This document shows, in pieces, positions 1,780 to 18,799 of a stretch of 64,000 nt of DNA. Origin of the DNA: Eremomyces bilateralis CBS 781.70 (taxonomy: Eukaryota > Ascomycota > Dothideomycetes > Eremomycetales > Eremomycetaceae); assembly GCF_010015585.1 (NCBI RefSeq), contig NW_022985103.1:1-64000 (forward strand). Reading direction: 5' to 3'. The notes below the pieces were generated by a model, which made no database searches, was not told the origin of the DNA, and saw only the letters and a list, made by a program, of their open reading frames with translations. A program made the position numbers and the translations under genes. How positions within the stretch are numbered: the stretch's first letter is position 1; the number at the start of each line of letters is the position of its first letter.

Positions 1780-4420
1780 CTAGAAACTCCATGAGCATGC
1801 GCATACCAATATCGCCATCGTGTCGCTATTAGGATCTAAATCAGCCGTGGCTCCTCTCCTCTCATAAGGTGGTACGACTATTCGATCTTCATCTCTTATG
1901 ACCTTTGCATTAAACACCTCCAATTTTTGAGTTGCTACTCTTCCGAGCCCGATCGTATGTATGTCTGGTGCTTGATGTCTTGCCTCCCTGCCGCCGTCAT
2001 AAAATTTAATCGAGTCGCATGCCAGCTCAAAGGCTAATGTATGAATATCATCCATCGCGGAGGGCACAGAATGTGTGGAGTTGCCCTTCCGGGCGAATGC
2101 GTCCTCTACTGCCCTGCGTAGACAAACAGTATATTCTGCCGTTAATGAGGTAGTCTTGAACAGAGCATCCAATCCGAAAGTCGACGTTCGACGGGCCCAA
2201 AGCTCTCTTTTCAGCTCCAGGTTCAGATATTCAAGGCTACGATCGACTTCTTGCCAGGTGTCCCGACAGCCATGCGGGTTAACGAGGCTATTCGAGAGTA
2301 TTGCGCGCCGAAGCTCCTTGTCACAAGCTTTGGTGCTAGTGAGCCGCTTTAGATAGAGCATTTCGAATGCGTAGTTTGATTGTCCAGTCCCCTCGAAGTA
2401 AAAGCAACAGACACCAATGACTCGGTCGATGAGTCCTATATCTCCGTTTTTGATGCCGTACTTCAAGGTCTTGTACACAACCATTTGTTGAAGGTATCGA
2501 GCATGACTAAGGAACTCCTCATCGACTGTATTGTTGGTATGCTTCTCCTTCGATGGTCGCCAGGCTTCCGGCTCAAATGCGGATCTGCGAACATCCTCCA
2601 CCAGTTCCATGAACCCTCTAGTATCCATGTTCCGAATTGCCTTGTCAACCCCCTCTTGATCGGAGATATCGATGCCGTACTGCTCGAGGCGAGTATAAAG
2701 TAGTCCAACAACTCGAGCGTCGAAACTGTGAAGCACTAGCTCTTCTAGAACCTGAAAAGCTGCACGGTCCGCTGGAATATTCTTTCGTCCCCAGAAGTTG
2801 ATGTTGTGATAGAGAGTTGAAGCGTCCTGTTGCTCCATGTTTCCGTAATGTGTCTTTTGCATGAGCCATAGAAAATTCATACGCAGGTGAAAGAGAGCAG
2901 CGACTCCTATCAGCCAGTCTTTTCTATCATACGCCATAGACGCGTCGACTTGCTCAGCCTGCATAGATCGGATAAGTGAAGAGGTTTTTTGATCGCCAAA
3001 CGCCAAGAACAGACGGTTGTCGAATTCTTTATTATCTAGTTGGAATTGGTGCTTGTAGATGCTCTCTATAACCTCGTAGGAGCCATCTAGAGTACCTTCG
3101 TTGAAGAGAATCGGACCGAGCGTCTTGCTGTCTGTCTTTCGAAGCTCGAGTAACTCGACTGTTGGCATAGCGGGGTAAGGTATACCGGACGTAGAGAAGA
3201 TAGATTTGATCGCGAGTGGATATACCGATCGAATTGCCTCCGCTATAAAGTAGGTATCAATCTTGGCGGCGGTCTCGTCATATACTGCTGCACCAGGAGA
3301 GTATAGAAGATCCTCTATTGTAAGTGGAACCTCGCGGTGCAGCATTGACTGCTTTAAACCACCAGAGGGGATATCGGCGCCTCTGAAAACCTTTCCCGTT
3401 GTCACAGAGCGCATTTCTGCGTGATTTGAAATGAGCTGGTGCTTAATACCTTCTCGATAGTCGAAATTGTCATACACAACACAGGCATCTAGTTGCTGAC
3501 CATATCGACGGACCGTTCCCTAGTTGCAATCAGTCGACGTCTATGCTGAGAGGCGGTGAAGATGCCTTTGCTTGTTCTGCCACGGTTTCGAGATGTCTGT
3601 GGACTCCCTTGTAGCCTTCACAAACCCCAAACTGGTGAAGAAGATCGAGGATACGCCGTTTCACGCCATTTGAGTGCAGAAAGGCACCAAATACGCGGGG
3701 AAACTTGTTGCTCCCTTCCGACGCCCGAGAATAGCAGAGAATCGACGTGATTATCGCAATCCTGTGGTTGAATTTGACAGGGTCCCGTAGTGATCGATCT
3801 TTTCTCTCTCTCTTGGGCGCCATGATGCCATTAAGCAATCCACATAGAAGAGGAGCATGAGTGTTAACTTGCTCGTACATCTGCCCAAACTGCATATCGC
3901 CCAGTATACGCTCGTAGTCCTCGACTTTCTGTCCCTCTGGCTCTTTCTCCCTTCCCATGCCGGCAGGTGAAGTTCTCTCTTGGACACGGTCGACTTGGTA
4001 GGCACTAAACATACCTCCGGCTTCTTCCAGTGCCTTCATTTCCTTCCTCAGACCCTTTATAGTGACAATTCCTGTCGCACCAGACGCGGGGTGTTCTTGC
4101 AGCGCGTCTAAGACCTCTGGTTGACCGTAGACGGCCTCGGCGAGCCGTTTGGCACGCGTGGCAGGGCGCTCTCCATAACCACCAGACCCTTGAGTCGTCG
4201 CGTAGACATGGATAAATTCTCGTAATGTAATTTTTTTTTTCCGCATGAATTGGCATATCTCGTTTACTCTCTGCGCTTTACTGCGTCTTTGAGACCTTCT
4301 TACTTTCTGACGAGGTGCATTAGATGTGTTTGAAGCAGCAATATGCCGAGGACTTGGAGCGGGAGGCAAGATGGGCGGGTTCAACCGCGCACTCTGACGA
4401 CGCTGGTTTTGGGCCGACAT
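1780..4420 (-). CDS. DUF6589-type protein, in two frames
   Basis: Two adjoining minus-strand frames make one protein of the fungal DUF6589 kind. The first (4420 to 3530) holds the family's N-terminal region, with ICQFMRKKKITLREF near the start and later ITSILCYSRASEGSN and HSNGVKRRILDLLHQFGV. The second (from about 3519 to 1780) holds YDNFDYREGIK, VTTGKVFRGAD, then AFGDQKTSSLIR and ALFHLRMNFLWL. The frames meet near 3520-3532 where a stop interrupts frame one. The join needs either a short intron ending at the CTAG whose last base is 3520, or one frameshift. I chose ATG at 4420; nothing upstream continues in frame with an ATG. The function of the family is not established. The conserved Asp residues in YDN and GDQ could belong to an RNase H-like fold, which is inference. 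It converges on a RecQ-like helicase. Confidence 0.7.
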
Positions 4421-5171: not shown

Positions 5172-7445
5172 ATGCAAGCTGTTTCAGCTATGACAGGAGA
5201 ATTACTGAAGAGTGGCCTTGAAAAGGCCGAGATGATGGTGGGCGGGGAGCAGAACGCGAAGCTTGCCCAGTTCAAGGTGAACACTAAAGATGTCACCTCA
5301 GGGAACGGTGTCATCACCTCCGACTATGGCGTGAAGCAGGTCAATACGGACGACTGGCTGAAGGTCGTGAACGAAAATCATACTGGTCCTGCGCTTCTTG
5401 AGGATCCATTCGCAAGGGAGAAGGTATATCTACAACTAGTCCAGCGTGCCAAGTTCCTAACACGGTGAAAGATCCATCGCTTCGATCACGAACGAATCCC
5501 GGAGCGTGTTGTCCACGCTCGTGGTTCTGGAGCCTTTGGGACCTTCCGCCTCCTCGAGAGCGCACAGGATGTGACAAGCGCAGGTATCCTAACAGACACG
5601 TCTCGAGAGACCCCACTGTTTATACGCTTCTCTACCGTGCTTGGTTCTCGCGGATCCGCCGACACCGTCCGGGATGTTCGCGGGTTTGCCGTCAAGTTCT
5701 ATACCCAAGAAGGCAATTGGGACATTGTGGGCAACAATATACCCGTATTCTTCATCCAAGATGCGATCAAGTTCCCCGACGTCATCCACGCCGGCAAGGC
5801 CGAGCCGCACAATGAGGTCCCCCAGGCGCAAACTGCGCATAACAACTTCTGGGACTTCCAGTTCATGCATACGGAGGCGACGCATATGTTCATGTGGACG
5901 CAGAGCGATCGGGCCATCCCCAGGAGCTTCCGAATGATGCAGGGATTTGGCGTCAATACGTACACGTTGATCAATAGCGAGGGTAAGAGACACTTTGTCA
6001 AGTTCCATTTCGTTCCGGAACAGGGCGTCCACAGTCTGGTGTGGGATGAGGCTCAGAAAATTGGTGGGCAGGACCCTGACTTCCACCGCAAGGATCTGTG
6101 GGACGCCATCGAAGCTGGCGCGTACCCGAAGTGGAGGTTTGGCATCCAGGTCATTCCGGAAGCCAATGAGCACGAGTTCGATTTCGACATCCTTGATGCC
6201 ACCAAGATCTGGCCGGAAGACCTTGTGCCTGTCCGGTTCATTGGCGAGATCGAACTCAACCGTAACCCGGACGAGTTCTTCCCTCAGACTGAACAGATCG
6301 CGTTCTGCACCAGTCACGTGGTCCCGGGCATCGGTTTCTCGGATGATCCCTTGTTGCAAGGGCGGAACTTCTCGTACTTCGACACCCAGCTCTCACGTCT
6401 TGGCGTCAATTGGCAAGAACTGCCCATCAATCGACCCATCTGCCCGGTTCTGAACCACAACCGAGATGGGCAAAGTAGGCATACGATCACCAAGGGCACG
6501 GTGAACTATTGGCCAAACCGCTTCTCTGCTGGACCGCCGGCTGAGAAGTCGGATCCGACGTCGTATGTCGATTATCCTCAGAAGGTCGAAGGGATCAAGG
6601 TTCGCACTAAGTCAGCCAAGTTCAAGGAGCACTTCAACCAAGCACAGCTCTTCTACAACTCCCTCTCACCCCCGGAGCAAGCCCACATCCAATCCGCACT
6701 GTCCTTCGAGCTGTCCCATTGCGACGACCCGACAGTCCATGAACGCCTGTGCCAGCGTCTGGCCGATATCGACCTGGGCCTGGCTCAGCGGGTCGCCCAG
6801 ACCGTCGGGTCGCCGGCACCCCAAAAATCAAACCACCCGAACCACGGCAAGAAGACGATCCATCTCTCCCAAACCGAATTCCCAGGCTCCAACACGATCC
6901 CGGCACGAAAGATCGCGTTGCTTATCGCGAACGGCTTTGACAGTACGGTGTATCAGACCATCGAAAAGGCGTACAAGGCGCTTGGTGCCTTGCCAACTCC
7001 AGTCGGCCCAGTTCGTACTCCCATCCAGCCCGCCTCAGGGTCTGCGGTGCAACCCATCCACCACCTGGAATCGGCACGTAGCACGCTCTTTGACGCGGTT
7101 ATTCTCATTGGCGGCAACGAATCCTACCAGGCGACACTTTCCAACAACGGGCGTGCCGTGCACTGGGTACGTGAAGCGTTCGGACACTGCAAGCCTGTCG
7201 GCGCGATCGGCGGAGCCGGCATTGCGATCCTCAAAACGGCGGTGGGGACGGTGCAGCAGGTGCAGATTGCCCAGGGATCGAGCGTGCTGGAAAGCTTCGG
7301 AGTTGTCACGGCAGGGGAGCAAGCGACACTTGGAGACGAGATGATGAAGCAAGGTTCCTTCATGACGACCTTCACGCAAGTTCTGGCTAAGCATCGTGCT
7401 TGGAATCGAGAGACGGAAGGCTTGACGACGATGGTGGCATATTAG
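5172..7445 (+). CDS. catA: Large-subunit catalase, conidial CatA type
   Basis: Haem catalase that splits hydrogen peroxide to water and oxygen. Two exons, 5172-5423 and 5472-7445; the 48-nt intron has GTATAT, CTAAC and AAAG signals, and splicing restores EKIHRFDHERIPERVV. About 741 residues, right for the large-subunit (clade 2) class. Visible motifs: the distal His in VVHARGSGAF, the Asn in DIVGNNIPVFF, the proximal haem ligand Tyr in RNFSYFDTQLSRLG, and a C-terminal class I amidotransferase/DJ-1-like domain from ARKIALLIANGFDS to the end. The first in-frame ATG is 5172; a second at 5190 (MTGELLKSG) is equally possible. The frame extends further 5' only through a GTG, so a signal peptide from there is not supported. 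In Aspergillus this type is linked to conidia; expression here is inferred. Confidence 0.93.
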
Positions 7446-12806: not shown

Positions 12807-14259
12807 ATGGGATATTTTCGCCTGGCGTTGACGGGTCGCGTCGCACGACGTCAATGGCGATACTTCAGCACAAGCCGACGATTAATGAGAGATCCACAAC
12901 TGGAAGAATATGACCGTATGTTCCAAAATGAATTTGGGTCATTAAAGGACAAATACGGTAGGGACGCCCGACCGATTGCCCGCTCATTGCTAACGGGACT
13001 AGATGCACCGAAACATCCGATTGTGCTTGCACACGGTCTCTTAGGGTTCGACGAACTTCGCCTCGCTGGCTCTTTTCTGCCAGGGATTCAATACTGGCGA
13101 GGAATCGTGAATGCGCTACGATTACAGAACATCGAAGTAATAACTACGGAAGTTCCGTCGTCGGGCTCAATTGAAGCACGAGCGGAAAAACTGGCTATGA
13201 GGATTGCGGAAAAGGCTGGAGGGAAGAGCGTGAACATCATCGCGTATGAAACATCAATCTTATCAGCTGTGTCTAGCGGAGCTGACAATCGACAGACACA
13301 GCATGGGGTAAGCAATTCCTTGAGAACTTTGAAGGCAGCCTCTGCTCCCATATACCGTCCTAATATCATCCGTAAAGGGGCTTGGACTCGAGGTACATGA
13401 TCAGTAACTTAAAGCCCGAAAACGTTAAAGTCTTGTCCCTCACAACGATTGCTACACCACACCGTGGATCATCTTTTGCAGATTATCTTCACGAACAATT
13501 AGGCCGTAAGGAATAGCTACCTTACCAAACGTTATGTCTGCTAAACCGTCGCAAGCGATCCACTTCAAAAGACTTTCTCGAGTATTAGGCCAAGTTGGAA
13601 TGGAATCGGGCGCATTCTCGCAGTTGACACAGAAGTATCTGATAGAAGAATTCAATCCAAAAACGCCGGATCGGGATGACGTCCGGTATGTCGTCCCTTG
13701 CTGCCATCAATCCGGAATGTTCTAATGGTATAGGTATTTCTCATATGGCGCATCACTTGAGCCCACGGTATGGTCTGTCTTCTGGTACTCGCACCGGATC
13801 ATTAAGCAGAGGGAACAAGCGATGAATGATGGACTTGTCAGGTAAGCAAGCCCTTTCTCAGATTGCGCCTTTCTGACCTGCGCTCCAGCGTACCAAGCTC
13901 TCGATGGGGTAAATATCAAGGAACTTTGACAGGAGTTAGCCATCTTGATTTAATCAATTGTACGTCAAGAGCTTCCGCTGAATTCCGAAAACATACTCGC
14001 CCTGAGTCTCCCCTATGGATAAGCTATTGACAAATGGTGTAGGGACGAGCAGAGTGAAGGTTCTGTTTTGGCTCTTGACCGGTGTCAAGAGAAGGTTAGC
14101 TACCGAGCCCCTTTTACCATCCATTAACTACTCACAGTTCGTTCAGTTTCAATGCGCATGCATTATACCTTGAAATCGCTGGTACGATTATGCCTTACAC
14201 GCTCCGCCTTGTCACACATTGATTTGAATCCAGATATGCTCGCGAAAGAAGGCTTGTAA
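12807..14259 (+). CDS. TGL2: Mitochondrial triacylglycerol lipase, TGL2-like
   Basis: Alpha/beta-hydrolase lipase, 332 residues. Nine exons: 12807-13243, 13296-13307, 13378-13505, 13556-13685, 13734-13841, 13889-13959, 14043-14094, 14147-14181, 14234-14259. All eight introns start GT, end AG and are 47-83 nt. The N-terminus (MGYFRLALTGRVARRQW, then FSTSRR) is Arg-rich without acids, a likely mitochondrial presequence. The lipase core has PIVLAHGLLGFDELR (oxyanion region), then AHSMGG with nucleophile Ser148, then LTTIATPHRGSSFADYL and later VPSSRWGKYQGTLTG and VSHLDLINW (catalytic His). The Ser codon lies in exon 2, which is only 12 nt long. The acceptor of intron 7 has a near alternative 9 nt upstream. 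Read without splicing, the gene stops at 13398 and loses its catalytic residues. Close to yeast Tgl2 in layout. Confidence 0.88.
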
Positions 14260-17167: not shown

Positions 17168-18799
17168 CTAGGACATCAGGCGGGTCATGTCCGCCCTGAT
17201 ACGAGAGTAATCCAACAATCCTTCGATCTTCCCCACGGCAGAGATGGCGATGTCCTGGTCCCACAACTTCCGTTTGGCAAAATTCATCACGTCCTTCTCA
17301 GTGATCTGGCCAACGACACGTTCAACCTCTTCCGGAGACAGGCGACGGCCGGTGGTGACGATCTGGCGGCCAATGTCTTCGGCAACGGCGGTGGTGCCAT
17401 CGAGCGACAGGAGGATGGATGCCTTCAGTTGGGCCTTGGCGCGTTCCACCTCGGAGACTGAGACATTGAACGACAATCTCGACCACTCCCGGAGAGTGAA
17501 ATGGACAAGATCATCAATGCGTTCCGTGGCCTCAGTGACCATATAAATGCCCCACAATCTGTTTTATGTATCATTAGTCCATTACTCATACTTGGAATTA
17601 TGATTCACACTTACCCAGTGTCACTGTAGCTTGTTGAAAAGCTCATGAAGCTATTCGCGAGGTTGTGCTTGTGGACGAAAGTGCTCAGCTTGCTGCCCAA
17701 GTATGGTGAATTGCCCATGGCTCGGTCCCAGTTGCCGACAATCGCTTGCGTGACCAACGCCGTGAAGTAGTCCGGGTCGTTCCAGCTCACGCCCTCGACG
17801 GCAATGGCGATGTTAGCGGTGGGCAAACCATCGTCTCGCATCCGCACATCGGAACCGACAAAGTCGGGCTTCTCCTTATACTTCTTGGCGCTCAGCGTCG
17901 AGCTCGGGAGCTTGGCGAAATATTGTTCCGCAAGCTCGACCAACTGCGCGTGGGGCACGCCACCGGCACCAACGAGAACCATACGGTCAGCGGTGTAGTT
18001 CTGACCGATATAGTCGACCAGATCTTGGCGCTTGATGCTTTCGATGTTGGCCCGAGGTCCTAGGATCGTACGACCGAGAGGTTGTCCTTGGAAGGCAGTG
18101 GCATGGAGATGATCAAAGACCACTTCCTCCAGTTGCTTGTCGACCTCTTCTTGCTCGCGCAAGATCACATCACGCTCCCGTTCGATGGCCTGTGACTCGA
18201 GCCGGGAGTGTTGAAGGATATCGGAAAGGATGTCCACGCATTTGGGGACGTCGGAATTGAAGCTCTTGGAGTAGTAGACGGTATTTTCTCTCTGCATGGT
18301 GGTTAAGACGAATTCACTGTTGGGAGGTCATCGGAAGACATACTGAAGTATACGCGTTCAAATGTCCGCCCATATTCTCGATTTCCATCTCCAATTGCTG
18401 CTGGGTTCGCTTCTCCGTACCCTGGAATGGATAAATTAGTCGAGATCTCGAACATGTTCCCATTGAGATGTTACCTTGAAGGCCAGATGCTCCAGGAAGT
18501 GCGCGGTGCCATTGTTCTTGTCGGTCTCGGCGCGGCTGCCGGCATCGATCCAAACACCAACTGTCGAGGTCTGAGCCCATGGCGAGTGTTCGGTAGCGAT
18601 CTACCAGGAGTCAGCATTAGAGGAAGAGATGTTTAGCGGGTAGACGAACCGTGAAGCCGTTGCTCAAGGTGGTGCTCTCCGTTTTTGCCCCGTGGCTCAC
18701 GGGAGTCGCGAGACCTCTCTTGACGGGCCGGATGGCATTGATGGCAGCGCGGCTCCGTAAGCTCTGATTGAGCGTGAGGGCTAGCCGCCTGGAAGCCAT
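17168..18799 (-). CDS. MAS1: Mitochondrial processing peptidase beta subunit
   Basis: Catalytic subunit of the matrix peptidase that removes presequences from imported proteins; M16 metalloprotease, 473 residues. Exons 18799-18650, 18600-18475, 18421-18344, 18291-17615 and 17558-17168; introns of 49, 53, 52 and 56 nt. The start [17 protein letters not shown] is itself a presequence. The inverted zinc motif HFLEH is present in [13 protein letters not shown], and the distal Glu lies in [14 protein letters not shown]. Splicing restores [15 protein letters not shown] and SDTGLWGIYMV. The length is normal for the family. The gene is divergent from SDH4, with 618 bp between their ATGs. Confident; the alpha subunit is excluded because its zinc site is degenerate. 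Confidence 0.95.

Follow-up and report, generated by a model that had tools for sequence, protein, structure and literature searches.

Micro-exons embedded in conserved motifs of fungal enzymes are already known. In the Fusarium gene CYP621A, a 1-nt exon is reported to complete the PKG motif, with 18 SRA reads in its support, and CYP5141A1 of Phanerochaete is described as having an exon of 8 nt within its AGHETT motif (PMC12940212); exons as short as 6 nt have been recorded among Phanerochaete P450 genes (PMC1184071). For the skipping of such an exon, the best precedent is the 15-nt exon II of rtnA in Aspergillus niger, where a fully spliced cDNA without the exon was reportedly found, produced via a stwintron, and a predicted intermediate made up fewer than 5% of clones (PMC6616335). 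A 20-nt micro-exon in Xlr2 of Trichoderma virens has been called “switch-like,” its use being glucose-dependent and described in terms of separate transcripts, not of an exon 1-3 junction (PMC11121469). A described enzyme similar to the one considered here is the yeast lipase Tgl2, which is characterized by a (G/A)XSXG motif, a Ser144-Asp259-His281 catalytic triad and kinship to the lactonizing lipase LipA (PMC11889585). Of its three alanine variants, none is reported to complement an mcp2 tgl2 double deletion; S144A is described as devoid of lipolytic activity, and less complex is seen with the S144 variant, although the account gives no lowering of its steady-state level (PMC11889585).

Here we describe a lipase gene of Eremomyces bilateralis CBS 781.70 in which a 12-nt exon very probably represents a real feature of gene structure and would hold the catalytic serine. 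The window, that is, the whole stretch of DNA analysed, comprises 64,000 nucleotides (contig NW_022985103.1, positions 1 to 64,000), and the features of the gene are collected in the table below. Like the P450 cases, this locus combines a very short exon, two short introns and a strictly conserved motif that the protein needs and that annotation easily misses. It differs in belonging to another enzyme family, in that its exon holds the nucleophile itself, and in being predicted from sequence, whereas reads bear out the exon of CYP621A. No micro-exon at a lipase elbow was described in the titles and abstract openings of the open-access literature that we searched. Most likely, the lipase exon is a further example of an established class, one that carries a catalytic serine and is spliced constitutively.

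Features of the predicted lipase gene, with positions given in the window
Feature	Position	Strand	Description
Exon 1	12807..13243	+	437 nt; start codon ATG at 12807; covers residues 1-145 plus two bases of codon 146
Intron 1	13244..13295	+	52 nt, phase 2; donor GTATGA, putative branch site GCTGAC (A at 13285; picked by score), acceptor CAG
Micro-exon (exon 2)	13296..13307	+	12 nt; completes AHSMG with the predicted nucleophile Ser148
Alternative 6-nt exon 2	13302..13307	+	Candidate only, from sequence; needs the AG at 13300-13301 as acceptor
Intron 2	13308..13377	+	70 nt, phase 2; donor GTAAGC, putative branch site CCTAAT (A at 13363), acceptor AAG
Exon 3	13378..13505	+	128 nt; GLDSRYMISNL..TIATPHRGSSFADYLHEQLG
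Exon 4	13556..13685	+	130 nt
Exon 5	13734..13841	+	108 nt; Asp268 of the likely triad
Exon 6	13889..13959	+	71 nt; His290 of the likely triad
Exon 7	14043..14094	+	52 nt
Exon 8	14147..14181	+	35 nt; possible start at 14138 through another acceptor (+9 nt)
Exon 9	14234..14259	+	26 nt; DMLAKEGL and stop

Rebuilding the gene gives nine exons across 12807-14259 that form a closed frame of 999 nt, or 332 amino acids plus a stop; the 333 codons put forward in the sequence-only reading of this DNA, made before the present analysis, are thus borne out once the stop is counted. The same reading had proposed that a 12-nt exon rebuilds AHSMGG, and both its letters and its coordinates stand as claimed. 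Removal of 13244-13295 and 13308-13377 leaves exactly this exon, and the junctions run ..ATCGC / intron 1 / ACACAGCATGGG / intron 2 / GGGCTTGG.., with both introns in phase 2, such that the 12 nt encode HSMG through split codons. Judged on the gene model, an internal coding exon of no more than about 30 nt between two introns fits the anatomy of a fungal micro-exon. The remaining exons are likewise intact and keep the frame, the introns of the gene measure 47-83 nt, and the N-terminus encoded by exon 1 is hydrophobic and basic. The border of exon 8 is uncertain between 14138 and 14147, as intron 7 (14095-14146) offers two in-frame acceptors 9 nt apart, at 14137 and 14146, that would give proteins of 335 and 332 residues, respectively; the former, which adds three residues, outscored the latter in the first of our splice-site models (n = 93 introns). 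A search of the organism's own 26.6-Mb genome at E<=10 placed all six match rows inside this gene, which is accordingly single-copy. The placement among Eurotiomycetes implied by the sequence-only reading gained no support from a 5.8S rRNA search, which gave no match. Altogether, the nine-exon structure constitutes a well-supported model of predicted splicing.

The exon is singled out when the surrounding splice sites are combined exhaustively. With GT or GC donors, AG acceptors and introns of 40-200 nt allowed, 296 models with one intron and 8,067 with two could be built around the site. An [AG]HSxG elbow appears in eight of these, every one of which passes through the same 12-nt exon, and none of the enumerated models restores the elbow without it. 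The longer string AHSMGGLDSRY occurs in two models, both of which again use the exon, but the second requires a GC donor at 13115 and yields 43 residues fewer; VNIIAHSMGGLDSRY is produced solely by the model of the sequence-only reading. When the 134-nt stretch was shuffled 20,000 times with its dinucleotides preserved, AHSMG was never recovered, and an in-frame micro-exon carrying any [AG]xSxG arose in 55. The real stretch contains one other in-frame micro-exon candidate, namely the 6-nt exon 13302-13307.

With the 12-nt exon included, the (G/A)XSXG nucleophile elbow reads AHSMG at residues 146-150. In a PDB search with the spliced protein, 27 distinct sequences matched at E<=0.001, the best being 1ex9, a lactonizing lipase (2.5e-19), and the elbow is free of gaps in each of the three alignments printed from these 27. 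With the exon, the protein draws 11 Pfam families at E<=1, two of them (DUF676 and PGAP1) above the cut-off; without the exon, both passing matches are lost and one family is left, below the cut-off. Among homologous loci, an initial scan with a pattern that included the elbow retained 40 of 82 loci as spanning it by a coverage rule and dropped the other 42. AHSMG was ungapped in all 40, a result that we set aside as circular, given that VNIIAHSM was itself one of the search patterns and is present in all 40 rows. In these aligned homologues, the Asp268 column holds D in 37 and the His290 column holds H in 34.

Because the pattern of the first scan included the elbow, the homologue search was repeated without it. 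A query restricted to the part after the elbow found matches in all eight chosen genomes and, within a single bacterial class, in nine of 75 genomes, with one genome shared. In the resulting bacterial loci (16/16), AHSxG lies directly before GLD, the variable position being M in 13, K in two and Q in one. Six of the 16 (L113, L118, L122, L123, L124, and L125) lack VNIIAHSM. The genomes of eight of the loci (L110-L117) had already been selected by the elbow-including scan, and the remaining eight may in part come from genomes represented in that scan as well. The loci obtained from the genome and viral contig scans carry titles of bacteria, archaea or viral contigs; no fungal orthologue was found in either the genome contigs (245 stretches, 106 relatives, best 80 kept) or the viral contigs (14 stretches, 2 relatives).

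The position of AHSxG before GLD in all 16 homologues, together with the PDB and Pfam matches, supports the conclusion that the four elbow residues belong in the predicted protein. Ser148 (exon 2), Asp268 (exon 5) and His290 (exon 6) are its likely catalytic triad. Motif, triad and PDB kinship each point to an alpha/beta-hydrolase lipase of the lactonizing-lipase or Tgl2 kind. The likeness to yeast Tgl2 extends to the (G/A)XSXG motif, the Ser-Asp-His triad and the kinship to lactonizing lipases, 1ex9 being our best PDB match, and is drawn from the published description of that enzyme (PMC11889585). The name Tgl2, which comes from the motif and from the sequence-only reading, thus denotes a presumed orthology, and a mitochondrial location is likewise presumed. 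That the exon would encode a nucleophile serine which a Tgl2-like lipase needs, as had been suggested, agrees with the homologues and with the Pfam matches lost on skipping; that the motif is essential, claimed at the same time, is consistent with the reported phenotype of yeast S144A (PMC11889585).

Both introns were said to have good splice sites, which is a fair description. Measured against the consensus given for A. nidulans (GURWGY / RYURAY / YAG; PMC6616335), they are near-canonical: intron 1 agrees at 5/6 donor, 6/6 branch and 3/3 acceptor positions, deviating at the sixth base of the donor, and intron 2 agrees at 6/6, 5/6 and 2/3, its acceptor being AAG. The putative branch adenosines at 13285 and 13363 lie 10 and 14 nt from the respective intron ends. 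We also scored the sites with three models built on introns that had been picked mechanically from the window plus 200 kb of genome (n = 93, 93, and 271); these sets are noisy, the first including a false intron (13381-13462) inside the lipase gene itself, and their percentiles are a rough guide only. On this basis, the summed scores place intron 1 at percentiles 70/87/75, intron 2 at 28/77/30 and, for comparison, intron 3 at 0/69/32. The site does not fit a stwintron. In that arrangement, a splice element of the external intron is broken up by an internal one, with no coding exon between, whereas 12 coding nucleotides needed by the protein separate the two introns here, and neither a nested intron nor an AG|GT was seen within 13244-13377.

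We consider it very likely that this is an ordinary, constitutively spliced Tgl2-type lipase gene in which the codons of the nucleophile elbow are interrupted by two short introns lying 12 nt apart. In filamentous ascomycetes, splice sites are reported to pair across the intron (PMC6616335), and a 12-nt exon between short introns should therefore present no obstacle, with constitutive inclusion as the default. The 52- and 70-nt introns would each be recognised across itself by intron definition, and the exon would simply be ligated into the mRNA, exon definition not being required. The ligated exon would then restore AHSMGG and, as predicted, an active enzyme, while a failure of splicing would be expected to leave an intron retained, and with it a premature stop, rather than an inactive enzyme in frame. 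Inclusion of the exon in the mRNA is what the logic of the sequence suggests, and its constitutive character is suggested by the anatomy and by published averages. Variants may nonetheless arise, for which intron retention or the second acceptor 6 nt downstream is likelier than skipping; a degree of in-frame variation may occur, given how close that acceptor comes to the main one in score.

Were the AG at 13301 used in part of the transcripts, a 6-nt exon would result and the protein would remain in frame at 330 residues, lacking His147 and Ser148. This acceptor shares the branch site of the main one, is likewise a CAG, and reaches percentiles 62/80/73 against 70/87/75 in our rough intron sets, and a survey covering 23 fungi attributes 23% of alternative-splicing events to alternative 3' sites (PMC3925392). 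Its product would, however, be dead. The first AG after a branch site is usually the preferred acceptor, which likewise disfavors the downstream site, and we regard its partial use as highly unlikely.

The sequence-only reading had proposed that skipping the exon could switch the enzyme off without a frameshift. In part this holds: removal of 13244-13377 as a single intron does keep the frame and gives 328 residues without Ser148. The off-switch itself finds no support, cassette exons being rare and the introns short, and an in-frame exon length alone does not imply regulation. What speaks for a regulated cassette, with HSMG lost in a 328-residue off state under some condition, is that the length of the exon is divisible by three and skipping leaves the reading frame open, and that precedents exist in the skippable exon of rtnA (PMC6616335) and the switch-like exon of Xlr2 (PMC11121469). 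The former is similar in size and also keeps the frame when skipped, but its skipping depends on a nested intron of a kind not seen within 13244-13377. The latter likewise covers residues central to a conserved domain (PCRRCE in the zinc cluster), but belongs to a transcription factor, and its 20 nt are not a multiple of three. Furthermore, the 134-nt skip intron would be longer than any intron of the lipase gene, and its percentiles (9/55/25) fall below those of both real introns in all three rough models, a weak comparison in that the skip intron is built from their parts and is not independent of them. In fungi, where retention prevails over skipping (PMC3925392, PMC4046813), cassette exons are rare: 60 exon-skipping patterns are reported from A. 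nidulans (PMC4046813), and skipped exons represent 3% of the events in the 23-fungi survey (PMC3925392). A regulated cassette is, in our estimation, very improbable. Equally slender is the chance that the lipase is tuned at its elbow, whether by skipping or by the AG at 13301, through dead 328- or 330-residue proteins acting as possible dominant negatives in mitochondrial lipid turnover; were this true, such near-full-length forms could join the complex of the enzyme.

Regulated retention of either intron 1 or intron 2, or of the two together, could instead lower the amount of enzyme through products truncated at 176, 150 (by a TAA at 13309-13311) or 197 residues, respectively. Retention is the commonest type of alternative splicing reported for fungi, at 61% of events (PMC3925392), but it would not be peculiar to the micro-exon, and we give its regulated form even less credence. 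That the gene model is wrong or the copy decaying, with the 12-nt exon unused, is barely credible when every other exon is intact and in frame, the gene is single-copy and no other enumerated model restores the elbow.

For a constitutively spliced elbow exon, the consequence lies chiefly in annotation: software that discards very short exons when predicting genes would call an active lipase dead, with no frameshift to give warning. Should pairs of introns like these be common in the Tgl2-like genes of fungi, automated reports of a missing catalytic residue will have to be checked. Regulation would be of greater consequence, but nothing supports it so far.

Several minor observations accompany the gene. 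Two bacterial homologues, L018 (5001-5945) and L002 (5001-5780), share 31-36% identity with the predicted protein over residues 7-332 and 55-332; bacterial and fungal lipases thus align over nearly their whole length, which may bear on the origin of the gene. Elsewhere in the window, a long open frame at 5469-7442 (+) corresponds to a large-subunit catalase, with Pfam matches to Catalase, Catalase-rel, Catalase_C and DJ-1/PfpI and with many matching PDB catalases, the best being 1sy7, Catalase 1. An open frame at 17614-18327 (-) matches Peptidase_M16 and Peptidase_M16_C, and a 579-residue open frame at 1783-3519 (-) matches DUF6589 over nearly the whole profile.
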